Source of the DNA: Pseudomonadota bacterium
Lineage (GTDB): Bacteria > Pseudomonadota > Gammaproteobacteria > Burkholderiales > Thiobacillaceae
Length of the DNA: 64,000 nucleotides
Reading direction: 5' to 3'
Assembly (NCBI GenBank): GCA_021836225.1
Contig: JAKBJA010000172.1
Coordinates: 1-64,000 of the forward strand
In this document: positions 8,542 to 53,047 of the stretch, piece after piece
How the letters are laid out: each line of letters opens with the position of its first letter
How positions within the stretch are numbered: the first letter of the stretch is position 1
The notes under the pieces: generated by a model
What the model saw: only the letters and a program-made list of their open reading frames with translations
Told to the model about the DNA's origin: nothing
Database searches by the model: none
Made by a program: the position numbers and the translations under genes

Positions 8542-8624
8542 TGTAGTCGTTGATGGCAAGATTGTTTTTTAATTCGCTCTGGCATAATGCTGGCGAATTA
8601 ACTGAATATAAAGGGAGGGTGGAC

Positions 8625-9248: not shown

Positions 9249-9256
9249 CTGTGTCT

Positions 9257-9274
9257 GCGCCGCTTTTGCGGCGC
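9257..9274 (+). other. Intra-operon GC-rich hairpin
   Basis: GCGCCGC-TTTT-GCGGCGC is a perfect 7-bp stem with a four-base loop, located eight bases after the export lipoprotein stop. There is no following T-run, so it is not a typical intrinsic terminator. It could slow 3' decay of the first cistron, raising its expression relative to the rest of the operon, or act as an attenuator; neither can be decided from sequence. Confidence 0.5.
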
Positions 9275-9322
9275 TTGTGCCCACGCCGCAGGCTGTCGGG
9301 TGCTCTTTGATGGAACGTACGC

Positions 9323-10858: not shown

Positions 10859-10866
10859 GAGAAACC

Positions 10867-11808
10867 ATGAGCATTATTGAAAAAGCAGCTGGCAAGATTG
10901 GCGCAGGCGCATCCCGGCCGGCCTCCCCTGGCGGTGAAAACGACCCCGGCCACGACACCAGCCTGATCGAAAATGCGCTCAACAAGCAGCGCAGCAGTCA
11001 CGCCGCACCCTTTGTCGCGACCCCGGTCGAACCGATGTTCAGCGAACCGGACACCATCGCGATGGAGGGCGGCAGCCAGGTTCAATCCATCAACCTGGCG
11101 CGCCTGCACCGCATGGGCGTGGTGGCGCCGGATGCCGAGAAGAGCCAGATCGCCGAAGAGTTCCGCATCATCAAGCGTCCGTTGATTGCCAATGCTTTCG
11201 GCCAGGGCGCTGCGCGGGTGAAGAACGGCAACCTCATCATGGTCACCAGTTCGCTGCCGGGTGAAGGAAAGAGCTTCTGCGCCATCAACCTCGCCATTTC
11301 GATGGCGATGGAAATGGATCGCACCGTGCTGCTGATCGACGCCGACGTCGCCAAGCCGCGCATCCCCGAGTATCTCGGCATCCACGCCGACAAGGGCCTG
11401 CTCGACGTGCTCCAGGACAAGGACCTGAAGCTGTCCGACGTGTTGATCCGCACCGATATCGCAAAGCTGACGGTGCTGCCCGCCGGCCGCACCTACAAGC
11501 GGGCAACCGAACTGCTGGCGAGCGCCGCCATGACCCGCTTGGTCGAGGACATCGGCAACCGCTACCCGGATCGCATCATCCTGTTCGATTCGCCGCCCTT
11601 GCTGGCGACCAGCGAATCGAGCGTGCTGGCCACCCACATGGGGCAGATCGTCATGGTGGTGGAAGCCGAAAAAACCTCGCAGGAGGCCGTACGCGAAGCT
11701 TTGAGCCACATCCAGTCCTGCGAAGTAGTGGGCATGCTGCTGAACAAGACCACGCCGACCCCGGGTGCAGATTACTACTATGGTTACTATGGCAGTTACG
11801 GCAAGTAA
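10867..11808 (+). CDS. Tyrosine autokinase for EPS assembly (BY-kinase, XrtA system)
   Basis: A 313-residue cytoplasmic bacterial tyrosine kinase that partners with the chain-length protein. Motifs: Walker A SSLPGEGKS (about 128-136), Walker A' VLLIDADVAKPR (about 154-165) and Walker B IILFDSPP. The C-terminal tail has the expected tyrosine cluster (DYYYGYYGSYGK, six Tyr), the autophosphorylation target. The N-terminal about 110 residues are linker-like with AEEFRIIK before the catalytic core, as in CapB/Wzc kinase domains. It starts eight bases after the previous gene, and its end overlaps the next gene. Confidence 0.95.
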   Translation: MSIIEKAAGKIGAGASRPASPGGENDPGHDTSLIENALNKQRSSHAAPFVATPVEPMFSEPDTIAMEGGSQVQSINLARLHRMGVVAPDAEKSQIAEEFRIIKRPLIANAFGQGAARVKNGNLIMVTSSLPGEGKSFCAINLAISMAMEMDRTVLLIDADVAKPRIPEYLGIHADKGLLDVLQDKDLKLSDVLIRTDIAKLTVLPAGRTYKRATELLASAAMTRLVEDIGNRYPDRIILFDSPPLLATSESSVLATHMGQIVMVVEAEKTSQEAVREALSHIQSCEVVGMLLNKTTPTPGADYYYGYYGSYGK

Positions 11809-13381
11809 GCTTCGCCCGCGCAGCGTCAAAATGGCGCCGCACAGCCGCGCTCCCTGGGCCGGCGCTTCGTTTGTAGTCATGGCAGCGGCCTTCGCAATGC
11901 CAGCGCACGCCCTTGACTGGCGTGTTGAACCCAGCGTTGGCGCGTCGGCAACCTATACCGACAATGCCAATCAGAGCGCAACCAATCCTGAGGATGCGCT
12001 GATCTTGAGCGTGACGCCGAGCGTCAGCCTGCGCTCCGAAGGTTCGAGACGGGTGCGGGCTAGCCTGCGTTACGGCTTGAGGGGGGTGGCGCGTTTTGGT
12101 GAAGATCAAAGCACCGACCTCAATCACAATCTGGGTGCTGCCGGCAATGCCGAGCTGATCGAGGATTTTCTGTTCATCGACGGCAGCGCACGAATCTCGC
12201 AGGAACTGATTTCACTGTTCGGCTCGCCAGCCGACGCCGATATCAACGACAGCAACCGTGCCACCGTCGGCACCTACTCGATCAGCCCCTATATCCAGAA
12301 ACGCCTCGGTAGCTTTGCCAATGCGCGGGCGCGCTACACCACCAGCGGCGCGATTTTCGAGAACGACACCGCGGCCGACTCCAGCGTGAATTCCTTTTCG
12401 GCAGGGCTGACCAGCGGTTCCCGTTTCAACGATCTCAGCTGGGGACTCAATTACTCCCTGCGCAAGGCGGAAAACCGCAAAGCAGCCATCAGCGCCGCCA
12501 ATGCCGACACCACCTTCGAGAGCGCCAGCGCCACCCTTGGCTATGCGCTGACCCGGAAATTCCGGGTGTTTGGCACGGTGGGCGAGGACTGGAACGATTA
12601 CCCCAGCACCACAGACATCGACGGCTCGTCCTACAGTGTCGGCTTCGGCTGGGCGCCCACCCGTCGAACCAGCGTCGAGGCCTCGGTCGGCGAGCGTTAC
12701 TTCGGTAACACGTTCAGTTTTTCCGGCAACCACCGTACCCGCCTGTCACGATGGACGGTGCGTTATTCGGAGGACGTCAGCGATATCACCCAACAGTTTC
12801 TGGAGCAGAGCAGCCGACTTTTCTGGGTGTGCAACGGTCTGCTCATAGAGTCCCAGACCGATCCGGGTGGCTGTGTTGGACCGATTTCGGCGGGAGAACT
12901 GGCGCTCTTTTTCAGCAACTACGGCGTTTCTGCGACCGATCTGGTTGCCGCAGGCTTGCTCAACATTTCAACTGCCAACGGCGTTTTCATTATCAAGAGC
13001 TTAAAGATGGGCGTGTCGTGGGATGTCGGCCGGTTGGGCTTCGGGCTGTCGGCGCAAGACACCAAACGCCTTTATCAACTGTTCGGCGACGCGGAGGATC
13101 ACGTCCAGGGTGTGACCGGTTCTGTCAGCTATCGAATGTCGCCCAGGACCACCGCCAACGGCAGTCTGTCGCTCACCCGCAACAGTGCAGATGCGTCGCT
13201 TTCGCCCAGCGGCATAGCCCGGGAGGACGACCTTCTCAATCTCAGCCTCGGCCTCAACCACCGCTTTGCCGACAAGCTTAGCGGTGCACTAATTTTCCGC
13301 CATATCCGGCGTGATTCAAACGCGGCGGATGCCGACTACGACGAAAACAGGATTACCGCCTCGGTCAACATGCGCTTCTGA
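11789..13381 (+). CDS. Outer-membrane beta-barrel protein of the XrtA/EPS system (EpsL-like)
   Basis: A protein of about 530 residues with a signal peptide (WAGASFVVMAAAFAMPAHA) followed by DWRVEPSVGASATYTDNANQS, typical of the PEP-CTERM-associated beta-barrel family found in EPS clusters. The mature protein alternates short polar and aromatic strands (YGLRGVARFGED, RKFRVFGTVGEDW, LSRWTVRYSEDVS) and ends in ITASVNMRF with a terminal Phe, the outer-membrane assembly signal. It is expected to form the outer-membrane exit pore or an anchoring barrel for the polysaccharide. The start is uncertain: ATG at 11780, 11789 (inside the kinase gene, probably coupled) or 11831 (just after it) are all in frame, and none has a clear ribosome-binding site. 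Confidence 0.88.
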   Translation: MAVTASKLRPRSVKMAPHSRAPWAGASFVVMAAAFAMPAHALDWRVEPSVGASATYTDNANQSATNPEDALILSVTPSVSLRSEGSRRVRASLRYGLRGVARFGEDQSTDLNHNLGAAGNAELIEDFLFIDGSARISQELISLFGSPADADINDSNRATVGTYSISPYIQKRLGSFANARARYTTSGAIFENDTAADSSVNSFSAGLTSGSRFNDLSWGLNYSLRKAENRKAAISAANADTTFESASATLGYALTRKFRVFGTVGEDWNDYPSTTDIDGSSYSVGFGWAPTRRTSVEASVGERYFGNTFSFSGNHRTRLSRWTVRYSEDVSDITQQFLEQSSRLFWVCNGLLIESQTDPGGCVGPISAGELALFFSNYGVSATDLVAAGLLNISTANGVFIIKSLKMGVSWDVGRLGFGLSAQDTKRLYQLFGDAEDHVQGVTGSVSYRMSPRTTANGSLSLTRNSADASLSPSGIAREDDLLNLSLGLNHRFADKLSGALIFRHIRRDSNAADADYDENRITASVNMRF

Positions 13382-13462
13382 CCACGCTTCCGGCATGGCA
13401 CAGCCGTTGCTTCGCATTCTGTGCGCACACGGTCTGTGCTCCACTCAGACAACGGATTGTTC

Positions 13463-14497
13463 ATGTACGAAGACTATTACCGCTTTAGTGCCAAGCCGTT
13501 CCAGCTTAATCCAGACCCGCGTTTCTTCTACGGTTCCAAGGGGCATCGGCGGGCAATGGCGTATCTGGATTACGGCCTCTCGCTCGGCGAGGGGTTCATC
13601 GTCATCACGGGAGAAGTCGGTGCGGGCAAGACCACGCTGGTGCGCAATCTTTTTCGCCAGCTCGATTCGCATAGCCTGGTTGCCGCGCAGCTTGTGTCGA
13701 CCCAACTGGATGCTGAAGACACCCTGCGCAGCGTCGCCGCTTCGTTCGGGCTCGAGCATGAAGGCCTGACCAAGTCGGCCCTGCTGAAAAATCTTGAAGA
13801 TTTTCTGTCGGCGGCTGCCCGCCAGGGCAAACGCACGCTGCTGGTGGTGGACGAGGCGCAGAACCTGACACCGCGCGCAGTGGAGGAACTACGCATGCTG
13901 TCCAACTTCCAGAACAACGAACGTTCGCTGATCCAGACCTTCCTGTTGGGGCAGCCCGAATTTCGCGGCATCCTGCAAAGTCCCGACATGCAGCAACTGC
14001 GCCAGCGCGTGGTGGCTTCCTACCATCTGGGGCCGCTCGATGCGGACGAGACGCGCGGCTACATCGAGCACCGTCTGCGCACCGTCGGCTGGCAGGGGAT
14101 GCCGAGTTTCGACGACGATGCCTTTGCTACGCTGCACCGCTTTACCGGCGGTATTCCGCGCCGACTCAACACCACCTGCGACCGTCTGCTGCTGTTCGGT
14201 TTTCTGGAGGAAAAGACCCACTTCGGCGAGGCCGAGGTCAACGAGGTGATTGACGACCTGAAGAACGAGGTGGCGCACCAGGACTTTCATGGGGCCACCG
14301 GCGTCAACAATCACGCGTCGGCGGGCAGTGTGCTGCACAACGAGGATACCGTGCGGCTTGCGCAGCGCATCGATCAGGTGGAGCGCTCGGTCAACCGCAT
14401 CCTGCCCATCGTGCGCAAGATTCTCTATACCGTGAGCGAGCGTAATGCGGCAACAGGTGAAGAAAGTGGCTCGCCGGACAGCGGCGCCCCGCATTAA
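13463..14497 (+). CDS. XrtA-associated AAA ATPase (ExeA-like)
   Basis: A 344-residue AAA+ ATPase of the type found next to exosortase A genes, related to the general-secretion ATPase ExeA. It begins MYEDYYRFSAKPFQLNPDPRFFY, a hallmark of the family, with Walker A GEVGAGKTT (about 50-58), Walker B TLLVVDEAQNL (Asp130, Glu131) and a sensor region FLLGQPEFR. A C-terminal stretch after residue 290 is variable and may be a linker. The ATG at 13463 is chosen because it begins the conserved N-terminus; an upstream in-frame codon at 13421 adds 14 unconserved residues. It probably powers assembly of an envelope complex in EPS export; its exact role is not established. Confidence 0.94.
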   Translation: MYEDYYRFSAKPFQLNPDPRFFYGSKGHRRAMAYLDYGLSLGEGFIVITGEVGAGKTTLVRNLFRQLDSHSLVAAQLVSTQLDAEDTLRSVAASFGLEHEGLTKSALLKNLEDFLSAAARQGKRTLLVVDEAQNLTPRAVEELRMLSNFQNNERSLIQTFLLGQPEFRGILQSPDMQQLRQRVVASYHLGPLDADETRGYIEHRLRTVGWQGMPSFDDDAFATLHRFTGGIPRRLNTTCDRLLLFGFLEEKTHFGEAEVNEVIDDLKNEVAHQDFHGATGVNNHASAGSVLHNEDTVRLAQRIDQVERSVNRILPIVRKILYTVSERNAATGEESGSPDSGAPH

Positions 14498-14506
14498 GGC
14501 TTCACC

Positions 14507-15610
14507 ATGACCCAGGTTTTATGCGTCGCAGGTGCGCGTCCCAACTTCATGAAAATCGCCCCGGTAATGGCGGCATTCGCCGAAACCGGGATCGCCGCGC
14601 AGTTGCTGCATACCGGCCAGCATTACGACGCGGCGATGAGCGACAGCTTCTTCGCCGACCTCGGCATTCCGCCCCCCGATCATCATCTTGAAGTGGGTTC
14701 CGGCAGCCATGCGGTGCAGACCGCCGAAGTGATGAAGCGCTTCGAGCCGGTGCTCGAAAGCGTGCAGCCGCAGGCCGTGCTGGTGGTGGGTGACGTCAAC
14801 TCGACCATCGCCTGCGCGCTGGTCGCCGCCAAACGCGGCGTGCGAGTGATCCACGTCGAGGCCGGGTTGCGCAGCTACGATCGCGGTATGCCGGAGGAAA
14901 TCAACCGCGTTCTCACCGACCAGATTTCCGACCTGCTGTTCACCACCGAGAAAAGCGCACTTGCCAACCTCCAGCGCGAAGGGATCGACCCCGCGCGCGT
15001 CGAATTCGTCGGCAACGTGATGATCGACACGCTCTATCGCAACCTTGAACGCGCCGTTCCGGCCAGCCGGACCCTCGGCACCACGCTGCCGCAGTACGCT
15101 GTACTGACGCTGCACCGGCCGTCCAACGTCGATGACCATGACACGCTGGCTGCGCTGCTCGACGTCGTCGGCGAAATCAATCGCACCCTGCCGGTGGTGC
15201 TGCCGCTGCATCCGCGCACCCGCGGCAACATCGAAAAATTCGGTTTCACCGCCAAGCTTGACGGTCTCCATATTCTGCCGCCGGTGGGCTACCTGGACAT
15301 GCTCGGCCTGATGCGCGACGCCAAGCTGGTGCTCACCGACTCCGGCGGCATCCAGGAAGAGACCACTGCGCTCGGCGTGCCCTGCCTCACCCTGCGGGAC
15401 AACACGGAGCGGCCGATCACCCTCTTCGAAGGCACCAACACCCTGGTCGGCCCCGATCCCGATGCGATCCGGGCCGCATTCAACGACGTCATGGCAAGCG
15501 GCGGCAAGACCGGGCGTATTCCGGAATACTGGGACGGCCGCGCGGCGCTGCGCATTGCGCACACCCTGCAGGGCTGGCTGCCGCTGCAGAAAGGCAGGAG
15601 GGCGACATAA
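14507..15610 (+). CDS. wecB: UDP-N-acetylglucosamine 2-epimerase (non-hydrolysing)
   Basis: A 367-residue cytoplasmic enzyme that interconverts UDP-GlcNAc and UDP-ManNAc, providing a ManNAc-type precursor. Family motifs are present: GARPNFMKIAPV at the N-terminus, VVGDVNSTIACALVA, HVEAGLRSYDRGMPEEINR, LHPRTRGNI and DSGGIQEETTALGVPCLTLRDNTERP. It begins nine bases after the ATPase and its stop directly abuts the ATG of the deacetylase. A second, sequence-divergent copy lies at 53087-54223; this one is in the conserved XrtA core order and probably serves the core repeat unit. Confidence 0.95.
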   Translation: MTQVLCVAGARPNFMKIAPVMAAFAETGIAAQLLHTGQHYDAAMSDSFFADLGIPPPDHHLEVGSGSHAVQTAEVMKRFEPVLESVQPQAVLVVGDVNSTIACALVAAKRGVRVIHVEAGLRSYDRGMPEEINRVLTDQISDLLFTTEKSALANLQREGIDPARVEFVGNVMIDTLYRNLERAVPASRTLGTTLPQYAVLTLHRPSNVDDHDTLAALLDVVGEINRTLPVVLPLHPRTRGNIEKFGFTAKLDGLHILPPVGYLDMLGLMRDAKLVLTDSGGIQEETTALGVPCLTLRDNTERPITLFEGTNTLVGPDPDAIRAAFNDVMASGGKTGRIPEYWDGRAALRIAHTLQGWLPLQKGRRAT

Positions 15611-16453
15611 ATGGCGCCAATCAAAAATGCCATGTCGGTCGATGTCGAGGACTACTTCCAGGTGTCGGCGTTCGCGCCGCATATCCGGCGCGAGGACTGG
15701 GACAGCCTGCCGTGCCGGGTCGAGCGCAACGTCGACGTCATTCTCGGTTTGCTCGACGAGGCTGATGCCAAGGCTACTTTCTTCACCCTCGGCTGGATCG
15801 CCGAGCGCTATCCTCAGGTGGTGCGCCGCATCGTCGACAACGGCCACGAGCTCGCCAGCCACGGCTACGGCCACCAGCGCGCCAGCGACCTGACGCCCGA
15901 GCAATTCCGCGACGACATCACCCGCGCCAAGCGCATTCTCGAAGACCTTGGCGGGGTCGTCGTGCGCGGCTACCGCGCGCCGAGTTTCTCCATCAACCGG
16001 AAAAACTGGTGGGCAGTCGAGGAGCTGGAAAATGCGGGCTATGTGTATAGCTCGAGCGTGTATCCGGTCAAACATGACCATTACGGCATGCCCGATGCAC
16101 CGCGTTTTCCGCACCGGCCCAACGGCGAGGCCGGCATCCTCGAACTGCCGCCGACCACCGTCCCGCTGCTGGGCCGCAATCTGCCCGCAGCGGGGGGCGG
16201 CTGGTTCCGGCTGCTGCCGTACGAGGTGTCGCGCTGGATGCTGCGACGGGTGAACGCACAAGACCGGGCGCCCTGCATGTTCTATTTCCACCCCTGGGAA
16301 GTCGACCATGAGCAGCCGCGCCAGTGCGGAATTTCTGCCAAGACGCGCTTTCGCCATTACGTCAATTTGCAACGTATGCCGGGCAGACTGCGCCAATTGC
16401 TGAACGACTTCGAATGGGACCGCGTCGACCGCGTGTTCCTAGCCGAACATTGA
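15611..16453 (+). CDS. XrtA-system polysaccharide deacetylase (NodB domain)
   Basis: A 280-residue NodB-homology deacetylase, expected to remove N-acetyl groups from the growing or secreted polysaccharide. The first catalytic motif is SVDVEDYFQV (Asp11 base, Asp14 metal), the metal histidines are His84 and His88 in SHGYGHQRAS, and the third motif is RGYRAPSFSI. There is no signal peptide, as is usual for the exosortase-linked group, which implies action on a lipid-linked or nucleotide-linked intermediate inside the cell. The ATG follows the wecB stop with no gap; an alternative ATG at 15632 would start directly at the catalytic strand. Confidence 0.94.
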   Translation: MAPIKNAMSVDVEDYFQVSAFAPHIRREDWDSLPCRVERNVDVILGLLDEADAKATFFTLGWIAERYPQVVRRIVDNGHELASHGYGHQRASDLTPEQFRDDITRAKRILEDLGGVVVRGYRAPSFSINRKNWWAVEELENAGYVYSSSVYPVKHDHYGMPDAPRFPHRPNGEAGILELPPTTVPLLGRNLPAAGGGWFRLLPYEVSRWMLRRVNAQDRAPCMFYFHPWEVDHEQPRQCGISAKTRFRHYVNLQRMPGRLRQLLNDFEWDRVDRVFLAEH

Positions 16454-29321: not shown

Positions 29322-30148
29322 GCCGGCTGCGGCTGATGATCCTGTGCGGGCGCAGCGCCCGCCACCTGCACGTCGCCAACACCCTGTGCCGTGCGGGCGA
29401 GGCGCTGGCCATCGTGCAGGAAACCGGCGGCGAATGGAACCTGAAGAAAACCCTGAAAAAGCTGCGCCCCGACAATCTCTTCCGCAAGGTCTGGCGCTGG
29501 CTGCGTGATCGTCGCCGCTACACCGGCAATCCCGAGGCGAAATTCTTTTTTCCGGATGGCGAGCCGCGGCTCGACCATCCCGAACTGGTGCGCGAAGTCC
29601 CGCACGTCAACCATCCTGATGTGGTGAAGCTGGCGCGTGACCTTCAGCCCGACCTGATCTGCGTGTTCGGCACCTCGCTTATCCGCGGCGACCTACTGAA
29701 GGAAGGCCGCCTCGGCATCATCAACCTGCATGGCGGGCTGTCGCCCGAATATCGCGGCGCCGACTGCACCTTCTGGGCGCTCTACAATGGCGAACCGGAG
29801 AAAGTCGGCTGCACCCTGCACTACATCGATGCCGGCATCGACACCGGCCGCCTGGTCGCGCACATTAGTCCGGAAGTGCGCGAGGGCGACAGCGAATTGG
29901 TGTTGTTCTGGCGTGCGGTGCAGGATGGCGCCGAGGTCTATGCTGAAGCCGTTGCACGGCTTGCCAAGGGCGAACAGCTTGGCTCAAAGCAACCGGGCAA
30001 GGGCCGTCTGTATCAGGTCAAGGATCGTGGCCTGCGCCATGAACGGGCATTGGATACCCGGTTGGCTTCAGGCATGCTGGCAGGCGTGGCCTTGCCCCGC
30101 AGAGTCAGCTGGTTTACGAGTGTGACAGCACAGGAACAGAACACATGA
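29318..30148 (+). CDS. Formyltransferase-family protein (predicted sugar or lipid-linked N-formyltransferase)
   Basis: A 276-residue protein with the formyl-transferase catalytic segment: GIINLHGGLSPEYRGADCTFWALYNGE carries the HxG-type His, and YIDAGIDTGRLV the catalytic Asp. This is the part shared by methionyl-tRNA formyltransferase, ArnA and sugar N-formyltransferases such as WbtJ. The usual N-terminal GARP-like loop is replaced by LMILCGRSARHLHVANTL. Given its place among EPS genes and downstream of a possible deacetylase, it may formylate an amino sugar using 10-formyl-tetrahydrofolate. The C-terminal 50 residues are variable. It overlaps both neighbours by four bases. Confidence 0.85.
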   Translation: MSRLRLMILCGRSARHLHVANTLCRAGEALAIVQETGGEWNLKKTLKKLRPDNLFRKVWRWLRDRRRYTGNPEAKFFFPDGEPRLDHPELVREVPHVNHPDVVKLARDLQPDLICVFGTSLIRGDLLKEGRLGIINLHGGLSPEYRGADCTFWALYNGEPEKVGCTLHYIDAGIDTGRLVAHISPEVREGDSELVLFWRAVQDGAEVYAEAVARLAKGEQLGSKQPGKGRLYQVKDRGLRHERALDTRLASGMLAGVALPRRVSWFTSVTAQEQNT

Positions 30149-31467
30149 GAGACATACTGGTTACCGCGATTGTCTTCGGCGCTCTGCCCTTCATTTTCAA
30201 GCGGCCCTGGATCGGCATCATGCTGTGGTGCTGGCTCGGCTACATGAACCCGCACCGTCAGACTTGGGGCTTCGCCTACGATTTCCCGTTCGCATTCATC
30301 ACTGCCATCGTCACCATCACCGCCTTCGTGTTCTCGCGAGAGAAGAAGGAAATGGTCTGGACACGCGAAACCATACTGTTGCTGATGTTCATCGGCTGGA
30401 TGTTGATCACCACTTTTTTTGCATTTTATTCTGACTTGGCATGGCTGCAATGGAACAAGGTCTGGAAAATCCAGCTCATGGTTTTTCTCACGGCCATCAT
30501 CATCAAGGAACGCCAGCATCTGCACTGGATGATCTGGATCATCGCCTTGTCCCTGGGTTATTACGGGGTCAAGGGCGGCATATTCACCATCATGCATGGC
30601 GGGCAGTTCAAGGTTCAAGGCCCGGCCGGCACCTTTTTCGGTGGAAACAACGAAATGGCGCTGGTGCTGGTGATGCTTATTCCCCTGATCCGGTATCTGC
30701 ATCTCCAAGCGACTCAGCAATGGGTTCGCTTCGGATTGGCCTCAGCGATGGTGTTGTCAGGCGTTGCTGCCATCGGCAGCCAGTCACGCGGCGGGCTGGT
30801 GGCAATGGCTGCCATGGGATTGTTTTTGTGGTTCAAGAGCCGTCACAAGCTCGTCATGACCATCTACATGGCAGTTGCGGTTGCAATCATGGCTTCGGTG
30901 ATGCCACAGGCATGGTATGACCGCATGAATACGATCAAGACCTATGAGCAGGACGACTCGGCCCTGGGCCGCATCAACGCTTGGCACACCGCGTTCAACG
31001 TAGCGAAGGACCGGATCACAGGCGGCGGATACGAGATGTTCCGGGCGCCGACCTTCCGCCAGTATGCCCCCGAGCCATTCCGGGTGCACGATGTGCACAG
31101 CATCTACTTCGAGGTAATGGGCGAGCACGGCTTCATCGGATTCGGCATGTTCATCCTGCTTGCCGTGTTCGCTTGGCTGCGTGCCAACCAGGTGATTCGA
31201 GAATGCAAGAGCGACCCCGAGCGAAAATGGGCGGCTGACTTGGCGGCGATGATCCAGGTCAGCTTGGTCGGTTACGGGGCCGGGGGCGCATTCCTCGGAC
31301 TGGCTTACTTCGATCTGACCTACCATTTGATGATCATGCTTGTGCTGGCGGCAAAGTTTTCCGGCGTGCTGGATAAGACTATCCATCGTAAGGAAAAGGT
31401 TGCGAATGAGCCGTACATGCATCCTTCGGCACGTTGGGTCAAACCGCCCGCGTGGGAACGTAAGTAG
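30145..31467 (+). CDS. O-antigen ligase/polymerase (Wzy-like, exosortase A-associated)
   Basis: A 440-residue inner-membrane protein with about ten hydrophobic segments and a large periplasmic loop (about 270-340, containing RINAWHTAFNVAKDRITGGGYEMF). The pattern and SQSRGGLVAMAAM segment match the Wzy_C / RfaL superfamily, in particular the PEP-CTERM-associated putative O-antigen polymerase group. It would polymerise or ligate the EPS repeat on the periplasmic face. The start overlaps the formyltransferase stop; 116 bases with no recognisable feature separate it from the MBOAT gene. Base composition becomes less GC-rich from here to 34430. Confidence 0.9.
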   Translation: MRDILVTAIVFGALPFIFKRPWIGIMLWCWLGYMNPHRQTWGFAYDFPFAFITAIVTITAFVFSREKKEMVWTRETILLLMFIGWMLITTFFAFYSDLAWLQWNKVWKIQLMVFLTAIIIKERQHLHWMIWIIALSLGYYGVKGGIFTIMHGGQFKVQGPAGTFFGGNNEMALVLVMLIPLIRYLHLQATQQWVRFGLASAMVLSGVAAIGSQSRGGLVAMAAMGLFLWFKSRHKLVMTIYMAVAVAIMASVMPQAWYDRMNTIKTYEQDDSALGRINAWHTAFNVAKDRITGGGYEMFRAPTFRQYAPEPFRVHDVHSIYFEVMGEHGFIGFGMFILLAVFAWLRANQVIRECKSDPERKWAADLAAMIQVSLVGYGAGGAFLGLAYFDLTYHLMIMLVLAAKFSGVLDKTIHRKEKVANEPYMHPSARWVKPPAWERK

Positions 31468-44935: not shown

Positions 44936-47900
44936 TCAATTCTCCGTATCGCGATTATGTCTGATCCATCTGTACAGACTCTCCCACAGCGTGGCGGCAA
45001 TATCGGCATGCTGGTCAATCAGGTTCTTAATGCACATCGGATCCTCCACAACGTCGAAGAGCTGAAGCAGATGACCCTGGCTGAGGGGTTGATAGACGAG
45101 TTTCCAACGGCCTCGCCTGATCATGCGGTCCTTGGCAGCGAAGATGGTTTCGCAGTATTCGGGTTTGATGGCGAGCGTTCCGCTGCCACGATTCGGAACC
45201 TCGATCAGTTCAAGCAGGTTAGGATAGCGCAGATGTGTTTCCGGCAGCCCCGGAATATCGGCTATCCAGATGCCAGTCTCGTTGAACGCATCGAGCTCCG
45301 GGCAGGCACGGTCTGGCCCCATGCAATTGACAAGCGACACGCCGTCCATATTGCTGGTTGTGGGATGGCCGCATAATTCCAGAAGCGTCGGGGCCAGATC
45401 GATCGTGCGAACGACATCGTCGATCTTCCCTCTGGCAGGCAGGCTCGGGTCGCGGATCACCAAAGGGATGCGCGGGCTGGCTTCGCCGACAGCCGAATTG
45501 CCCTGGCCCCAGGTGTCGTGCTCGAAAAACTCCATGCCGTGGTCCGAATAGACGACGACGATCGTGTTATCAGCCAGCCCGCAGGCTTCAAGGTGTGCCA
45601 GCATTTTGCCCACTTCATCGTCAAATTCCGCCACACATCCGTCATACAGATCGATGATCTGGTCGAGATCGAATTCCGCCTTGGGGGCGCCCTGGCGTCG
45701 GATGATGTCGAACGGGTCGGTCAGGCGTGCCATGGCGAACTTGGATTCACCCTTATAGGCTGGATCGGCAAAACGTGTGTACCAAGGCCATTCCGATGCA
45801 AACGGCGGGTGGGTGGTGGAATAGAACACGTTGAGAAAAAACGGTTGCGGGCTTTCTGCCAGGCGCGACACCAGCCGCCGCGCGCGCTTGCCCAAAGGCT
45901 GCGTCAGCGGCACCCCGCCCAGGTAGTACAGCTCGGGCAGCATCAGTCGTCCCAGCCGGTTGTGGGTGAACAGTGACAGGTACAGGCGCAGGTCCTTTGG
46001 ACCCTGGCGAATCAGGTATTTCAGGTTCCACTGGTCTTCCGGCAGGTCGGTGTAATCAAAGCCGAAGGAAAACTTGCCCATGTCGCCACCGCACCAGTCC
46101 GAGAGCGCGGCTGTGCGATAGCCCGCCTGTTTCAGCAGGGTGGGCAGGGCGTCGACTTTCAGGCGCGTATCCTCGTCGGGAACAAAGTTGTCGCGGATGC
46201 CATGGGTGTGCGGCCAAGTGCCCGTCAGCATCGAGATCAGGCTGGGGGCGGTACGCGCGCACGGAACATAGCAGTTGGAAAACAGGGTGCCGGCCGCGGC
46301 TAGCGCATCGATGTTCGGGGTCAGCGCGCGGCGATAGCCCAGTGCGCCCAGGCGGTCGGCGCGCAGCGTATCGGAGCCGATCATCAGGATGTTGGGCGGC
46401 GCATCTTCTGCGCGCGTCGGCTGTTTGCGCGGTGCGCGTGCCTTCGGCTGCCAGCCCGTCCAGGTGATCGTTCCCGCAAAGAACAGCATTGCTGCCCACA
46501 GCGCCATCAGGTCGCCGATACGGCCTTCCCTTGACAATTGCCAACTGGCGGCTGCGAGCAGCAGTCCGACCAGACCCATGGCGCCCGCCTGCAGGACCGT
46601 GATGAAAGCCGGGCTCATCCACTGCCACAGCCGGTACAGTCGGCTCATGCGGTAATGCATCGATGCCACCAGCAGGCCAGGATTGAAGCGCAGCTTGCGG
46701 ATAAATTGCAGTGAGAACGCGCCCAGCACGCCCAGGATTGCGGCAATGAAGGCCAAGCCCGCCGACCACGTTGCGCCGAGCACTGTGTTGAGCATGAAGT
46801 ACAGCAATACCCCCGCGCCGCCGGTGAACAGCATCAGCGCGAACGCCCAGGCGGTCAGGCGTGCCAGTGCAAACAGGGTGTAGCGCCGGTAATGGGTGAG
46901 CACTTCATCGCGCATGCGCGGCCCGGTTTGTGAAAAATCGAGCAGCGATTTAGCGAGTAGCGCTGCCGACCCCAGGCCCGCCACCCCCATCGCGGGCAGG
47001 ATGCCGGCCCAGCGCGCATCGCCGGCAGCGAGCCAGGCGATGAGGCCGCAGGCACCGGTAAGCAACGCCAGGGCTTCGACGCCCAGCACGCCGCGATCGG
47101 GGGGTAGTTGCAGTTGCTTTCTGCGATTGGTAGGAAGGGAGTCAGGGGCATCGAGGTCGTCAACCGAGGCCACCCCCATATAGTCGGTTTGACGGGTCAT
47201 GTAGGACGGGTCGGACAGGCGATCCCAACGTCCACGCAAAAAGCCATATAGGTTGACGACGCGTACGAACTCCATCACCGCAAGGACGCGCAGGCGCATC
47301 CTCCAGCCCTTGTCGGCAGTGGTTTTGCTGGCCTGTGTCCACAAGTGCCGATAAACGTGCCAGGCGGCCACTGCGAGTGCAGCGGCCAGCAAGGGCACAA
47401 ACCACACGCTCCCCAAAAGCAGCAGCAGAAACAGACCGTGCACCTGAAGATTGGTGAGGTAACCGGAAGTGCCGATGCCCACTCGCGAATTGCCGCGAGA
47501 AAAATTGATTCTCTGCCTGGCCAGCGCACGCCAGGTTTCGCGGGGGCGCCAGCGCACGATGGCGTCGCGGCAGAACACGAAGCGCATCCCCAGTTGCCGC
47601 ATGCGGATGTTGAACAGCGTGTCTTCCGCGGCATACAGCCATTCCGGGTAGCCCCCGGCTTTTTCCCAGGCGAGCTTGGTGAATGCGACCGAACGGCTTG
47701 AGGGGTAGAAGCGCGCGGTTTCGGTCTGGTCGCGATTCGGCTGGAAAGTGGCGTACACCACTGCTTCTTCGAAGGGAGTGTGCGTTTCGAAACTGAAATT
47801 GCCTGCAACCACGTCTGGTTTGCAGTCGGCTTCAAAGCAGCGCTCGATCTGTTTCAGCCAATCCGGATCCACACGGCAACCCGCATCGGTGATAGCGAGA

Positions 47901-48151
47901 TGGGTACCGGTTGCAGCAGCAATACCGAGGTTGCGACCTTCAGCAATATTACATGGCTGCGAGATCATGCGGAGGACACCACGTTCCGCGTAATCTTCGA
48001 GGATTTCAACGGTGCCGTCGGTGCTGGCGCCATCGACGATCACGATCTCGTCAGGCTTGCGGTTCTGCGACAACAGGGATTCGACAAAATCACGTATCGT
48101 GCCAGCTTCGTTGCGGACAGTGGCGATGATTGCGAAGCTGGGTTTTGTCAT
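44936..48151 (-). CDS. GT2 glycosyltransferase fused to a membrane region and an alkaline-phosphatase-superfamily (sulfatase-like) domain
   Basis: A continuous 1071-residue frame with three parts. Residues 1-235 are a GT2 domain (FAIIATVRNEAGTIRDFVES, DEIVIVDGASTDGT, AITDAGCRVDPDW, YAAEDTLFNIRMR). Residues about 238-560 hold seven or more hydrophobic segments with a cytoplasmic-looking loop around 305-350. Residues about 585-1071 are a sulfatase-like domain (ILMIGSDTLRADRLG with metal Asp594; VVVYSDHGMEFFEHDTWGQG). The position that is Cys or Ser in true sulfatases is Thr634 in RTAPSLISMLTG, and the following Arg is missing, so formylglycine chemistry is unlikely; Thr is used by phosphotransferases and phosphodiesterases of this superfamily. 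A membrane-embedded enzyme that makes or modifies a phospho-decorated glycan is the best guess. Confidence 0.85.
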   Translation of the reverse strand: MTKPSFAIIATVRNEAGTIRDFVESLLSQNRKPDEIVIVDGASTDGTVEILEDYAERGVLRMISQPCNIAEGRNLGIAAATGTHLAITDAGCRVDPDWLKQIERCFEADCKPDVVAGNFSFETHTPFEEAVVYATFQPNRDQTETARFYPSSRSVAFTKLAWEKAGGYPEWLYAAEDTLFNIRMRQLGMRFVFCRDAIVRWRPRETWRALARQRINFSRGNSRVGIGTSGYLTNLQVHGLFLLLLLGSVWFVPLLAAALAVAAWHVYRHLWTQASKTTADKGWRMRLRVLAVMEFVRVVNLYGFLRGRWDRLSDPSYMTRQTDYMGVASVDDLDAPDSLPTNRRKQLQLPPDRGVLGVEALALLTGACGLIAWLAAGDARWAGILPAMGVAGLGSAALLAKSLLDFSQTGPRMRDEVLTHYRRYTLFALARLTAWAFALMLFTGGAGVLLYFMLNTVLGATWSAGLAFIAAILGVLGAFSLQFIRKLRFNPGLLVASMHYRMSRLYRLWQWMSPAFITVLQAGAMGLVGLLLAAASWQLSREGRIGDLMALWAAMLFFAGTITWTGWQPKARAPRKQPTRAEDAPPNILMIGSDTLRADRLGALGYRRALTPNIDALAAAGTLFSNCYVPCARTAPSLISMLTGTWPHTHGIRDNFVPDEDTRLKVDALPTLLKQAGYRTAALSDWCGGDMGKFSFGFDYTDLPEDQWNLKYLIRQGPKDLRLYLSLFTHNRLGRLMLPELYYLGGVPLTQPLGKRARRLVSRLAESPQPFFLNVFYSTTHPPFASEWPWYTRFADPAYKGESKFAMARLTDPFDIIRRQGAPKAEFDLDQIIDLYDGCVAEFDDEVGKMLAHLEACGLADNTIVVVYSDHGMEFFEHDTWGQGNSAVGEASPRIPLVIRDPSLPARGKIDDVVRTIDLAPTLLELCGHPTTSNMDGVSLVNCMGPDRACPELDAFNETGIWIADIPGLPETHLRYPNLLELIEVPNRGSGTLAIKPEYCETIFAAKDRMIRRGRWKLVYQPLSQGHLLQLFDVVEDPMCIKNLIDQHADIAATLWESLYRWIRHNRDTEN

Positions 48152-48272: not shown

Positions 48273-49184
48273 CTAACCCGCTATCCAGCCGCCCACGTAG
48301 CCGACAAAGTAGGCAGCGTTCATTTCCTTGCGGAGTGATTTGTTCGCCCCTGAGCGCAGGCGCTCTTGCGCCGCCGTCTTTAGGGCGCGCAGCAATTGCG
48401 CAAATAGATACTTGGGAGGAAATCGACTCTTCGTTCCCCGATTTCGTCTCCCTTCCATTTTTCCCTGGCGAAAATGCAGATCGAGAAAGTAGCTGCGATT
48501 CAACTTGGCTGCCTGGATGCGGTGGTATATCACCGCATCAGGCGTCCACCACACACTAAACCCCGTGGACAACAGACGCCGATAAAAGTCGACTTCCTCT
48601 CCGCCGGTGTTGTCGGTACCCTTGCGGCCAAGCATTGGATCGAAATTCCCCGTGCGATCAATTACAGCCTTACGAAATCCGAAGTTGCCGCCATAAAATG
48701 AAGTGCTGTGCTCGGTAAGTTGCGTAATTTCATGGTATCGATCCACGTCGCCCAGAAAGCCCAGCAGGTCATCCTGTAACCAGGCAGGGCGGGCATCCTC
48801 GAACATGACTCGGATGCGACTTCCGAAAGCATCGGGTGCTTTTGACTCAATTAGACGCTCGTAGGCACAGAGCCAGTCCTCGTCTGGCGTTTCATCATCG
48901 TCTATGAAAATGATGTATTCCCCGCGTGCTTCCCTGATAGCTCGATTGCGCGCATTCGATAGGCCCAATTCTTCTTCCCGCACCACACGTATCCGCCAGC
49001 CGTCCGGCCACGGGTGGTGTGCGAGCAGTTCGTGGGTGCCATCGCTGCAGCCGTTGTCGATGATTAGCAGCTCCCATGCAGCCTTTGGCATGGAAAGCGC
49101 GCGCAAGTCTTTCAATGTTCGGACCAGGCGGTCTGCATGGTTGTGCGTGCAGAGCGCGACTGTGTAGGCAAATGTGTCGGTCAT
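48273..49184 (-). CDS. GT2 glycosyltransferase
   Basis: A 303-residue family 2 glycosyltransferase. TVALCTHNHADRLVRTLKDL and ELLIIDNGCSDGTHELL form the donor-binding region; YIIFIDDDETPDEDWL has the metal-binding DDD; GGEEVDFYRRLLSTGF is the conserved ED region. Its start overlaps the deacetylase stop by four bases (ATGA). The 121 bases between it and the fusion gene downstream have no clear feature. The composition is AT-richer than the XrtA core. Confidence 0.92.
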   Translation of the reverse strand: MTDTFAYTVALCTHNHADRLVRTLKDLRALSMPKAAWELLIIDNGCSDGTHELLAHHPWPDGWRIRVVREEELGLSNARNRAIREARGEYIIFIDDDETPDEDWLCAYERLIESKAPDAFGSRIRVMFEDARPAWLQDDLLGFLGDVDRYHEITQLTEHSTSFYGGNFGFRKAVIDRTGNFDPMLGRKGTDNTGGEEVDFYRRLLSTGFSVWWTPDAVIYHRIQAAKLNRSYFLDLHFRQGKMEGRRNRGTKSRFPPKYLFAQLLRALKTAAQERLRSGANKSLRKEMNAAYFVGYVGGWIAG

Positions 49185-49975
49185 GAGCTTATTGCGCGAA
49201 AACGACTTGCCACGCGGCTTAAGTAATATCTGGCCACACTTCCCAGTCGTCCGTCATTCGTGCCAAGTCGCATCTTGCGCAGAAGCATTGCCGGCGTGTC
49301 TGCGCCGAAAACATCCAGTCGTCGAATGCGGTAGCGATTAACGTCGCGGCGGTTGAATCCCGGCTGGGTTGAAAAAGCGGCGCGATAGCCCACGGAACTA
49401 GTCGCGTGTTCCACACGGTTATCCAGATGTCCGAAGGGGTAAGCCAGGTACTCGCCGTCAAAGGCAAACGATTTTTGCAGCGTCGTGCGTGATCGGGACA
49501 ACTCTTCCACCAAAACGGAATCGTCCAGTGTGGGGAGGCTGGGATGCGTGCAGGTGTGTGAATGAAAACTGATTCCGCGTCCAGCCATGTCGCGAATCTC
49601 GTCGGCGTCGAGTAAAGGATAGGTCCTGCCGTCCGGATTGACTGGCTGGGTCCACTCGTCCTGCTTGCCAATCAGATCGGTCACCAGGAACACGGTGGCG
49701 GGCCATCCATGCTGCTCAAGAACCGGCAAGGCGTAGTCGCGTACCCCGCGGAAACCGTCATCGAAGGTGATCACGAAACTCTTTTCAGAGAGATCCATTT
49801 TTCCCTCGACCCAGTCAATGAACTCCCCTATTCCAACCGCGTTCATACCGCAGTTGGCCAGGGCTTGCATGTGTGCCGCGAACTGCTTGGGAGATATGCA
49901 ATATTTTTGTTCCCACGCATTGTTGGCGGTGCCAACGCGGTGATACATCAATACAACGATTTTGTCGGTAGGCAT
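49181..49975 (-). CDS. Polysaccharide deacetylase (NodB domain)
   Basis: A 264-residue deacetylase of the NodB superfamily. VVLMYHRVGTANN at the N-terminus, VITFDDGFRGVRDYALPVL (catalytic Asp pair) and FHSHTCTHPSLPTL (metal His pair) are all present, followed by LAYPFGHLDNRVEHA. It lacks a signal peptide, so it probably acts on a cytoplasmic intermediate. The ATG at 49975 is preceded by AAGG; a TTG at 50002 would add nine residues. It is distinct from the XrtA deacetylase at 15611. Confidence 0.93.
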   Translation of the reverse strand: MPTDKIVVLMYHRVGTANNAWEQKYCISPKQFAAHMQALANCGMNAVGIGEFIDWVEGKMDLSEKSFVITFDDGFRGVRDYALPVLEQHGWPATVFLVTDLIGKQDEWTQPVNPDGRTYPLLDADEIRDMAGRGISFHSHTCTHPSLPTLDDSVLVEELSRSRTTLQKSFAFDGEYLAYPFGHLDNRVEHATSSVGYRAAFSTQPGFNRRDVNRYRIRRLDVFGADTPAMLLRKMRLGTNDGRLGSVARYYLSRVASRFRAISS

Positions 49976-50078
49976 AAGGTCAGCCTTAACAAGCCGTTTC
50001 AATCAAGCCGCGATACGGAACCACAACAAACGGTGCGAGGGCTGCTTTGATCATTGCGGGCATCAAGAATGTGGATTT

Positions 50079-51008
50079 TCACTCGTAATTCAGTTGGTGT
50101 GCTATGGGTGACACGGCACGCCGCAGCAACCATCGTTCCAGCTTGCTTACATAGGCCTGCTCACCCCCCCGCTCCGAACTGCCGACTTTGGTCTTGAGGA
50201 GGGAGTGGTCTATCGAGATGCTTAGATGCTTTTCTATCGTCTCGAGCGGCATGTTGCCTGCAACAAGATCCTCGTAACGCACCATAAGCGCATTGAGTCC
50301 CTCTGCATCCCTTATGAAACTTTCAACCAGATTTCGCCAGTGTTTTCCAAAATTCGTTGGCGTAAACATGGGCCTGTCCGGAAATGTGTCGTACCACTCG
50401 CGGCCATAGCGGCAATAGGATCGATAAGCATCAAGCGGGTTGCGGTAGAGAAACACGAAACGAGCTTTTGGATAGAGCCACTGCAGGTAGGCGCAATGAT
50501 CAGTATTCAGGCGGACCTCCTTGATGCCCCAGCGATCTGCTCCCGCACGGCGCGCTGGTTCGGCGAACATCGTATCGAAAAGCGCACGCTGCCCCCTGCG
50601 CCAGTCTTCAAGGGAAGGAAACAAATTGGCGATCCACTCTCCGGATAACTGATTTGGTGGCGTGCCTTCGTAGAAATAGGCCTGCGGCGGCCAGCCGGGT
50701 CGGAATGCCCGCATGCTGTCTGACAGCGCTTGGATCAAGCCACACTCGTCATAGGGCTCACCCCAGATGAGCACCCGGGAATCGGACATGATGAGCCGTT
50801 GCAGCAGGGTGGAGCCTGAGCGCCAGCCGGCGGAAAGCAGAAATATCGGCTCCTCGTTATCATCGGCAACCCTGGGCGGACACCTCGCCTGGAGCACCCT
50901 GACGCCTGTAGAAACGCTTGGCCTGTGCTGGAGTGCCCGCTGATGGGCTGACCTGGCCTTTGCGGTACCGCGAAGGGCCGCTGACAAGTATTCCAGAATG
51001 TTCGTCAC
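50079..51008 (-). CDS. Sulfotransferase-family protein (copy 3)
   Basis: A protein of about 309 residues with sulfotransferase motifs: IFLLSAGWRSGSTLLQRLI (PAPS loop), FVFLYRNPLDAYRSYCRYG (3'-phosphate site) and NALMVRYEDLVAGNMPLETIEKHL. It has an insert around SGEWIANLFPSLEDWRRGQRALFDTMF. The start is taken as the GTG at 51008, one base after the upstream GT2 stop with GGGAGG about twelve bases before it; a longer reading from 51074 lies inside the GT2 gene. It is not closely similar to the other sulfotransferase-like proteins in the window. Confidence 0.83.
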   Translation of the reverse strand: MTNILEYLSAALRGTAKARSAHQRALQHRPSVSTGVRVLQARCPPRVADDNEEPIFLLSAGWRSGSTLLQRLIMSDSRVLIWGEPYDECGLIQALSDSMRAFRPGWPPQAYFYEGTPPNQLSGEWIANLFPSLEDWRRGQRALFDTMFAEPARRAGADRWGIKEVRLNTDHCAYLQWLYPKARFVFLYRNPLDAYRSYCRYGREWYDTFPDRPMFTPTNFGKHWRNLVESFIRDAEGLNALMVRYEDLVAGNMPLETIEKHLSISIDHSLLKTKVGSSERGGEQAYVSKLERWLLRRAVSPIAHQLNYE

Positions 51009-51009
51009 T

Positions 51010-52035
51010 TTACTGGTTGCCTCCCGGCGCCGATTTGAGGAATGCGGGCCGCACGTACTCAACTGTTCCGGCACTCTGCATCAATGCCATCAGGGTCTCC
51101 TTCGCCTCTTTGAAATCCGTCTGGCCGGCGCGATAACGCGTTAAAAGGGCTGTCACCTCAGGGCTGAGCCGAGCCATGAGGTACTGTCGGCAATAGTCAT
51201 GATGGGCTTTCGTGAGGCGATAGGAGATGCTGTGGACCAGCTTTCCGCTCCATCTGAGCAAGAGGTTATTGATGCCATCAACATTCTGGAGAAGCAGAGC
51301 AACCACCGCATTGACTGCATCCTCCTCATTGATAAAGCCGTTCTTGTAACGGACCAGTACATCGGATGCCTTGACTTCACAGTACCGCGAGCAGAAGAGC
51401 GCGTCGTCATGTCGCCGAAAGTAGTAGAGCGGCTCGGGAATGTGACACGATTTGAAACGTTCCGCGATACGCATGAAATAGTCGTAGTCTTCGACCAGAA
51501 ACAAATCGGGATCGTAGTCGCCGACAGTATCGTAGGCCTCGCGGGTATAGAGAAAGCAGGCGCCAATGTGATTGCTTTTCTCCAATTGCAATTGGCCTGG
51601 GAGCTTTTCATGGCGTTTTTCCAGCGCATTCCCCGCGGCGTCGATATCTGCAAAAAGGTAATAGTCCGCGTAGACAAAGTCGCAGTCGCCCTGTTGCAGA
51701 CGAGCGACCATTTTCTCAATGGCCGTTTCGGCGAAGAGGTTGTCGTCTGATGTCCAGGTGAGGTAGTCGCCGCGAGCGAGTGAGAAGCCCTTGTTGAGTG
51801 CACGGGGCAATTTCAGGTTGGGCGCATTGCGTACATAGCGAATGCGGGCGTCGCTGAAGGACTCGACAATCTCCGGCGTATTGTCGGGCGAGTTGTCATC
51901 GACGATGATCAACTCCAGATTCGTGTAGGTCTGGCACAGGATGCTTCGAATCGCGTTCGGCAGTACCTGTGCCCGCTTGTAGGTGGGAAGCACGATACTT
52001 ACCAGGGGTTGGCTTGCGCGTGGCGTGCTATTCAT
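51010..52035 (-). CDS. GT2 glycosyltransferase
   Basis: A 341-residue family 2 glycosyltransferase. VSIVLPTYKRAQVLPNAIRSIL, LELIIVDDNSPDNTPEIVESF and YLTWTSDDNLFAETAI show the nucleotide-binding and metal-binding elements; FLVEDYDYFMRIAERF is the ED block. The C-terminal 100 residues are helical and unassigned. The downstream sulfotransferase starts one base after its stop, so both form one unit. Upstream are 256 non-coding bases. Confidence 0.92.
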   Translation of the reverse strand: MNSTPRASQPLVSIVLPTYKRAQVLPNAIRSILCQTYTNLELIIVDDNSPDNTPEIVESFSDARIRYVRNAPNLKLPRALNKGFSLARGDYLTWTSDDNLFAETAIEKMVARLQQGDCDFVYADYYLFADIDAAGNALEKRHEKLPGQLQLEKSNHIGACFLYTREAYDTVGDYDPDLFLVEDYDYFMRIAERFKSCHIPEPLYYFRRHDDALFCSRYCEVKASDVLVRYKNGFINEEDAVNAVVALLLQNVDGINNLLLRWSGKLVHSISYRLTKAHHDYCRQYLMARLSPEVTALLTRYRAGQTDFKEAKETLMALMQSAGTVEYVRPAFLKSAPGGNQ

Positions 52036-52291: not shown

Positions 52292-53047
52292 TTAGTCGGC
52301 CCGAAAAAGCTGGGTGTACAAGCTAATGTCTGGCGCACAGAGCTCGGCGATTCTCGACATTACGGAATCCGAAAGGCGAGCGTCCTTTCTGCCCTCGGGA
52401 GTTCGATTCAAGTACTTAATGTCCAGCTTGTGCTGAAACTTCTCTTCAAATTTTCTGGCGAAGTCGGGCAGATCATCTAGCCTGCCTAGAATCGAAAACC
52501 TTTTATATCGACCCAGGGCAATTTTGATTAACTCCTCTGAGTCGATACTGCTTTTTTTCAAATCCTCAGTAATTTCATCGACAAAAGCTCTACCGAAGGA
52601 TTTTGCCTGTTTTGTTTCGATGAACTCTTCGATCGGCATCTCTATTTTTTTCTGGAGCGCATTATAACGATAATGTGAGAGCCACCGGGCAACCGGATCA
52701 CGGAGTACTGTGACAAAGTGCCACTCGTCCTGGTATGCGTCATGCGCGGAATTGCTGTACTGAAAATGCCCAGAGATGCATCTGACGTTTGGCAAGGACA
52801 TCATGTAATTCAAGAGGTCCCGACGAACAAGAGGGTAGTGGGTCGTTTCGACTGTATTCCGCTCGGCAAATCGGGCTGCCTCCTCGTTCAAAATTACAAT
52901 CGAGTTCAAGTCGCGTGCACGCCATGGCTTGTAGCACTTGACGATGGCATTGGATATCGAGGTTCCCCCGCACTTGGCGATATGGAAAAAGAAAATCCTG
53001 TGATTCCTGATCGGTGGGGCGAGCAGGTCTTTCATTCGATCAAACAC
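52292..53047 (-). CDS. Sulfotransferase-family protein (Sulfotransfer_2-like, copy 4)
   Basis: A 251-residue protein with the loop FFFHIAKCGGTSISNAIV (about 18-35), the form of PAPS loop seen in the heparan/chondroitin sulfotransferase group (IPKTGGTS-like). FVTVLRDPVARWLSHYRYN is the 3'-phosphate segment, and FSILGRLDDLPDFARKFEEKF follows. It belongs to a different subfamily from the three other copies. The start may be the GTG at 53047 (AGAGG eight bases upstream) or the ATG at 53035. The gene is noticeably AT-rich, with Lys- and Ile-rich product, suggesting acquisition from another source. Confidence 0.82.
   Translation of the reverse strand: MFDRMKDLLAPPIRNHRIFFFHIAKCGGTSISNAIVKCYKPWRARDLNSIVILNEEAARFAERNTVETTHYPLVRRDLLNYMMSLPNVRCISGHFQYSNSAHDAYQDEWHFVTVLRDPVARWLSHYRYNALQKKIEMPIEEFIETKQAKSFGRAFVDEITEDLKKSSIDSEELIKIALGRYKRFSILGRLDDLPDFARKFEEKFQHKLDIKYLNRTPEGRKDARLSDSVMSRIAELCAPDISLYTQLFRAD

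Follow-up and report, generated by a model that had tools for sequence, protein, structure and literature searches.

What does a protein do that joins a glycosyltransferase (GT) to a domain of the alkaline phosphatase (AP) superfamily through a membrane module, and on which face of the membrane does its second catalytic domain act? The question is raised by a gene in a 64,000-nucleotide stretch of DNA from a Pseudomonadota bacterium of the Thiobacillaceae (GCA_021836225.1, contig JAKBJA010000172.1, positions 1 to 64,000), which we call the window. A first-pass annotation had proposed an enzyme that transfers a sugar at the cytoplasmic face and modifies the product with a phospho-group at the periplasmic face. 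One part of this proposal, a genuine fusion of a GT with a Thr-bearing AP domain, stands; the periplasmic modification does not, as both catalytic domains are predicted to be cytoplasmic. The protein is most likely a cytoplasm-facing phosphotransferase or phosphodiesterase with a Thr nucleophile, which shares a putative substrate, the lipid-linked repeat unit, with its fused GT.

The open reading frame (ORF) spans exactly 44936..48151 of the window on the minus strand, a strand left unstated in the first-pass annotation, and encodes an intact protein of 1071 residues (P0001); frame 1 of the plus strand has several stops over 44936..48151. The uninterrupted 3.2-kb frame described earlier is confirmed, with ORF, Pfam and helix prediction agreeing on a family 2 glycosyltransferase (GT2) part, a polytopic region and an AP-superfamily domain. 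Pfam places Glycos_transf_2 at residues 8-125 (E 5e-22) and Sulfatase at residues 586-928 (E 5e-47), and the polytopic part consists of six predicted core helices plus two that close the GT part (hydropathy and AlphaFold2, AF2). The features of the gene are as follows (pLDDT, predicted local distance difference test; pTM, predicted template modelling score; A1 and A2, the alignments described below).

44936..48151, minus strand: fusion protein P0001 of GT2, membrane and AP-superfamily parts, 1071 residues (ORF and Pfam)
47462..48151, minus strand: class A GT2 domain, residues 1-230 (Pfam PF00535; stand-alone homologues 73% identical in locus L071 and 74% in L073)
47321..47470, minus strand: helix pair ending the GT part, residues 228-277 (AF2 helices 228-247 and 253-277; hydropathy)
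47107..47152, minus strand: linker, with the DNA breakpoint relative to class B at codon 349 (47107) (low pLDDT at 334-345; the blastn match of L006, L007, L010 and L011 begins at 47107)
46454..47095, minus strand: six-helix membrane module, residues 353-566 (AF2 pLDDT 92, pTM 0.85)
44939..46396, minus strand: sulfatase-fold (AP superfamily) domain, residues 586-1071 (Pfam, sequence and structure matches)
46370..46372, minus strand: Asp594, presumed metal ligand (invariant in A1 and A2; aligns with YejM Asp268)
46250..46252, minus strand: Thr634, presumed nucleophile (invariant; aligns with the active-site Thr302 of Escherichia coli YejM)
45809..45811, minus strand: His781, presumed second-site ligand (118/118 rows of A2; aligns with the His of 'GTH' in E. 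coli EptC)
45539..45544, minus strand: Asp870-His871, presumed metal ligands (invariant in A1 and A2; align with 'SDHG' of EptC)
45518..45520, minus strand: His878, presumed second-site ligand (116/118 rows of A2; aligns with an EptC His)

Of 7998 candidates scored in a protein search with P0001, 1397 are relatives at E<=1e-3, the best 120 of them mostly about 1000-1100 residues long; with an unfused relative as query the figures are 1882 of 7993. From each search 120 matches were listed. Alignment A1 (121 rows) holds all those of the P0001 search and the window protein, A2 (118 rows) omits part of those of the other search, and together they comprise 230 unique proteins, the window's own included. 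From residue 349 onward the relatives have a common core, and the part before it, where present, is of two kinds, A (as in the window) and B. By this division, the set comprises 66 class A and 65 class B proteins, 87 unfused ones and 6 more that are unfused but extended at the C-terminus; the other six, three without the motif pattern that places the domain and three without a clear N-terminal class, were left out of the core tree, which has 224 rows. The acidic motifs of the GT2 domain are kept in A1 (D89 and E176 each in 118/121 rows, the others being gaps; D177 in 117/121).

Among GTDB genomes, relatives are encoded in 125 of 129 matching stretches, and 80 loci were retained; their record titles name, among others, Thiobacillus and further Hydrogenophilales, Nitrotoga, Sulfuriferula, Aromatoleum, Thauera and Chromatiaceae. 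In 65 of the 80 the fused ORF has at least 1000 residues, with a class A GT in 5 and a class B GT2 in 60, so the domain order recurs widely; homologues are not always split into two genes, as a frameshift artefact would have implied. The GT part is absent in 15 loci, six of which are truncated where the contig ends (L013, L041, L045, L047, L054, L067). Two records carry unexpected labels: P0111, named 'Thermoplasmatota archaeon', is a Thiobacillus-like protein (81% identical over 68% of the query), as is L028 from a metagenome-assembled genome named 'Rhizobium sp.' (77%); both contigs are possibly mis-binned.

The active site bears most directly on the chemistry. In the segment CARTAPSLISMLTG, residue 634 is Thr, and the nucleophile box reads T-A-P-S-L in place of the Cys/Ser-x-Pro-x-Arg of type I (S1) sulfatases; as had been proposed, there is no formylglycine motif. 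This Thr is invariant (121/121 rows of A1, 118/118 of A2 and 230/230 unique proteins, 228 of them by motif pattern and two read by eye). In an hhalign comparison with E. coli YejM (E 5.7e-8), D594 falls on D268 and T634 on T302, which puts residue 634 inside the active site and at the position of the Thr nucleophile in phosphoglycerol and phosphoethanolamine transferases. Against EptC (E 1.1e-9), H781, D870-H871 and H878 fall on the EptC His, Asp-His and His. The residues specific to sulfatases are replaced: the Arg of CxPxR by Leu638, the second metal Asp by Thr595, and the Lys and His of 'GKWH', the pair after the nucleophile that binds sulfate in type I sulfatases, by Asp685 and Cys687. The region opposite 'GKWH' reads SDWCGGD, with Asp685 in 118/118 rows of A2 and mostly Ala at position 687 in that alignment. 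We consider phospho- rather than sulfo-chemistry probable, with good confidence.

For LtaS, excerpts of PMC7576196 give T300, E255, D475 and H476 as active-site residues, and for EptA T280, E240, H383, H453 and H465; an excerpt of PMC12658134 describes a two-step mechanism via phosphoethanolamine-Thr. The LtaS pattern, with an acidic residue before the Thr and Asp-His after it, is present as D594, D870 and H871. P0001 resembles EptA/EptC/MCR, LtaS and YejM/LapC in this pattern, in the Thr nucleophile and in the membrane helices preceding the catalytic domain. Several observations weigh against a transferase of this kind. D594 and T634 miss the EptC Glu and Thr by one alignment column, and in the AF2 model pLDDT is below 50 in the active-site loops 598-603, 632-634, 781-793 and 872-885. 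The fold is that of sulfatases, by Pfam and by structure matches, and the nearest families by sequence are S1 sulfatases and phosphonate monoester hydrolases, which are also the closest solved relatives (PDB 6hhm, 7p24, 4upi, 2vqr). The best 60 matches shown for the domain include no EptA/LtaS chain, and in NCBIfam the arylsulfatase model scores far better (E 1e-38) than LtaS, YejM or CptA (3e-6 to 1e-5). Since its sequence is nearest to S1 sulfatases, the Thr chemistry was probably reached on the sulfatase branch and not as an offshoot of EptA. From S1 sulfatases P0001 differs in lacking Cys/Ser-x-Pro-x-Arg, in the loss of the sulfate-binding Lys/His, in being membrane-bound and by prediction cytoplasmic, and in its fusion to a GT.

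With the nearest solved relatives being hydrolases, the AP domain might, in the same cytoplasmic topology, be a hydrolase too: as a metal-dependent phosphatase or phosphodiesterase it would trim or proofread a lipid-linked sugar carrying phosphate before the sugar is exported. YejM, which has the same Thr, is reported as a Mg-dependent phosphatase in an excerpt of PMC7576196. However, the partners of the AP domain are building enzymes (GT2 and, in some relatives, PF04464) in a biosynthetic locus, and these fit addition better than removal. We regard this alternative as unlikely but worth keeping in mind, and lean slightly towards transfer over hydrolysis. That the domain is a catalytically dead scaffold tying GTs to the membrane is improbable: YejM was formerly proposed as a non-metalloenzyme (excerpt of PMC7576196), but in the present family the Thr and the Asp and His ligands stay (nearly) invariant while the GT partner changes.

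Where does the AP domain lie? In the excerpts of PMC7576196 and PMC12658134, the catalytic domain is periplasmic or extracellular in YejM, EptA, MCR-1 and LtaS, and EptA, LtaS and YejM have five helices before it. P0001 differs in having a GT attached, in the predicted inside location of its catalytic domain and in its membrane module. Pfam gives no hit above its cut-off for the module. With the whole protein as query, the Foldseek and VIA matches come chiefly from the sulfatase domain; the module alone has no clear PDB fold match and no EptA/LtaS or YejM-type protein among the matches listed. In a superposition of the whole model on full-length PbgA (6xlp), 421 residues are aligned with a root-mean-square deviation of 22.8.

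We counted Lys and Arg in the loops, alternating them backwards from the catalytic domain with the helix number preset to six for fused and five for unfused proteins. In the 223 rows counted (one unfused row is too short), the count is higher on the side of the catalytic domain in 222: 66/66 class A proteins (window included), 65/65 class B, 85/86 unfused and 6/6 C-extended. Omitting the loop that adjoins the catalytic domain, the numbers are 66/66, 65/65, 83/86 and 6/6. Mean counts per loop are 3.9 between transmembrane helices 4 and 5, 5.4 between 6 and 7 and 4.1 after 8, against 0.8, 0.1 and 1.3 in the remaining loops. By the same method the two controls come out with the C-terminal side outside, E. 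coli YejM with 7 against 12 and EptC with 4 against 9. The two loops predicted as cytoplasmic are conserved, with a mean entropy of 1.29 and 1.28 bits, whereas the outside loops have 2.84, 2.35 and 2.63; five helices with the N-terminus out and the C-terminus in fit the five unfused and two C-extended rows shown.

A second line of evidence comes from a CDP-glycerol glycerophosphotransferase-like domain, PF04464, which is absent from the window protein but lies C-terminal of the AP domain in six listed relatives by precomputed Pfam matches (P0163, P0165, P0167, P0172, P0174, P0180; confirmed in a Pfam rerun for P0163, E 5e-16). In L035 (10907-15271, Candidatus Nitrotoga sp. 1052), a single frame of 1454 residues contains class B GT2, module, AP domain and PF04464 (E 8e-12). 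Between the AP domain and PF04464, no segment has a mean hydropathy >1.6 in the six relatives or L035. Likewise, no hydrophobic segment was seen in the class B GT part of L018 or L035.

Because of the charge distribution, the even helix count, the PF04464 fusions without an intervening membrane segment and the class B GT without a hydrophobic segment, the AP domain very probably lies on the cytoplasmic side, beside the GT, and the expectation that the two domains occupy opposite faces was not borne out. Some points speak against this placement. The controls are only two, with modest margins; the unfused proteins of L071 and L073 appear to have a sixth helix, so that not every unfused protein has the five-helix form; conservation is lacking in the cytoplasmic linker 567-585 (2.43 bits); and the PF04464 match spans only part of the profile in P0163 and L035. 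Further, a helix at 283-313 seen in the AF2 model of P0001 might cross the membrane as a ninth segment in class A, placing its GT on the other side, with class B and unfused proteins unaffected. This slight ambiguity of the class A helix count, together with the location of the domain in EptA and LtaS, is what favours a cytoplasmic GT with a periplasmic AP domain that modifies the exported product. The positive-inside rule in 222 of 223 rows, with both controls correct, the C-terminal PF04464 fusions and the even helix count in class B make that arrangement very improbable.

The GT part has been exchanged while the core was kept. Class B GT2 domains are ~22-28% identical to the class A GT over aligned columns. 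When only classes A and B are compared, the nearest core is class B for 12 of the 66 class A proteins (several by margins <1%). The window protein is one of the 12, its core being 92.8% identical to that of class B P0067 against 91.9% to class A P0002. On the core tree, the four N- and C-terminal states need 15 changes, an estimate since FastTree gave long-branch warnings, against a minimum of 3 and a shuffled mean of 107. At the DNA level (blastn), the class B loci L006, L007, L010 and L011 match the window from codon 349 (47107) through the core with 85-89% identity. L007, L010 and L011 have further separate matches over downstream genes at 34-42 kb, and L006 is cut by a contig end. Within 9 kb upstream of the breakpoint there is no match of at least 150 bases to L006, L007 or L010, and L011 has one, at 63%, that covers the adjacent GT2 and deacetylase genes. 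The class A locus L001, in comparison, matches over codons 1-1023 with 88%. As DNA matches start at codon 349 and are mostly lacking upstream, the GT part was most likely swapped by recombination in the linker, together with the upstream side of the locus in three of the four loci. An exopolysaccharide locus could, by GT exchange at one linker and in one reading frame, change its product yet keep a fixed core.

The unfused ORF is uncut by a contig end in nine loci (L062, L064, L069, L071, L072, L073, L075, L078, L079), its start being uncertain in L062, L064, L072, L075 and L078. Eight of these have a stand-alone GT2 gene in the same stretch. In L071 and L073 it lies ~4.8 kb off and is 73-74% identical to the window GT part; in L062, L064, L069, L075, L078 and L079 it is 53-58% identical to the class B domain; in L072, a 7.4-kb contig, neither kind was seen. 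The fusion partners are therefore genes of the same locus. Since the module is fused to GT2-A or GT2-B in 5 and 60 of the 80 loci and accompanied by a stand-alone GT2 in eight of nine unfused ones, the AP domain is partnered with a GT, and we think it rather probable that it acts on the product of that GT.

We tentatively propose, at somewhat less than even confidence, that P0001 is a cytoplasm-facing Thr-nucleophile phosphotransferase coupled to its fused GT in an XrtA-type exopolysaccharide pathway. It would be a bifunctional inner-membrane enzyme with both active sites in the cytoplasm, anchored by the six-helix module. The GT2 part would add a sugar to a lipid-linked repeat unit. Conserved residues at or in the cytoplasmic loops of the module (K401-S402, T409-G410-P411, P491, A496-S497, Y500, W509) would contact the catalytic domain. 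There Thr634 would form a phospho-threonine intermediate, with one metal held by Asp594, Asp870 and His871 and probably a second by His781 and His878, and the product of the partner GT, a sugar or lipid-linked glycan, would then receive the phospho-group. The donor is a guess, perhaps the head group of an inner-leaflet phospholipid. The membrane-bound Thr-type phosphotransferases characterised in the literature excerpts considered act at the outer face of the inner membrane. If the proposal is true, a widespread and well conserved family at the cytoplasmic face would make phospho-decoration of polysaccharides possible before export. A bolder version, which we put forward as speculation and think unlikely to hold in full, is an inside-out counterpart of EptA/LtaS: a membrane module with no known counterpart presents a Thr-type phosphotransferase to the inner leaflet and phospho-decorates lipid-linked repeats in the cytoplasm, while recombination at a fixed linker exchanges the GT and glycerophosphotransferase-like domains on this core and so retunes the polymer.

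The surroundings of the gene are those of an XrtA/PEP-CTERM exopolysaccharide cluster, with six NCBIfam models above cut-off (TIGR03027, 03007, 03016, 03015, 03006, 03097), and its neighbours include GT2, GT4, deacetylase, FkbM methyltransferase and sulfotransferase genes.

8550..16453, plus strand: XrtA/PEP-CTERM exopolysaccharide genes (export, chain length, TIGR03016, ATPase, deacetylase; TIGR03027, 03007, 03016, 03015 and 03006 above cut-off)
30145..31467, plus strand: putative O-glycosylation ligase, exosortase A system-associated (TIGR03097 above cut-off)
48273..49184, minus strand: neighbouring GT2, cluster C3 (in 46/77 loci, on the same strand in 45/46)
49181..50002, minus strand: polysaccharide deacetylase (PF01522)
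50079..51074, minus strand: sulfotransferase family protein (PF13469)
52292..53047, minus strand: sulfotransferase family protein (PF03567)

The neighbourhood table covers 77 loci, 76 of the 80 fetched and the window. Three clusters of sulfotransferase-like genes were followed, each tested with Pfam through one representative. Their members lie within five genes of the family gene in 31 of these loci and directly upstream in L064, L069, L071, L073 and L078. Such genes, present in 49/77 loci (family loci only, no control loci), and the S1 sulfatases as nearest family would suit a sulfatase or sulfate-group enzyme without formylglycine that edits sulfate set by the locus, a very unlikely alternative given Thr for Cys/Ser and the replacements at Leu638, Thr595, Asp685 and Cys687. 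The class A GT2 also recalls an exopolysaccharide GT2 (EpsD-like, NF041875), which it matches at E 4e-19, far below cut-off (69 against 370 bits); in the window, the GT2 is fused to the AP core.

The two sulfotransferase genes near the fusion gene (50079-51074, 52292-53047) belong to different Pfam families. An asparagine-synthase-like protein at 34463-36289 matches TIGR03108 (XrtA amidotransferase) far below cut-off (298 against 817 bits). A tetratricopeptide repeat protein at 40551-41375, without an NCBIfam match, belongs to a cluster present in 54/77 loci, where it lies on the strand opposite the fusion gene in 54/54.

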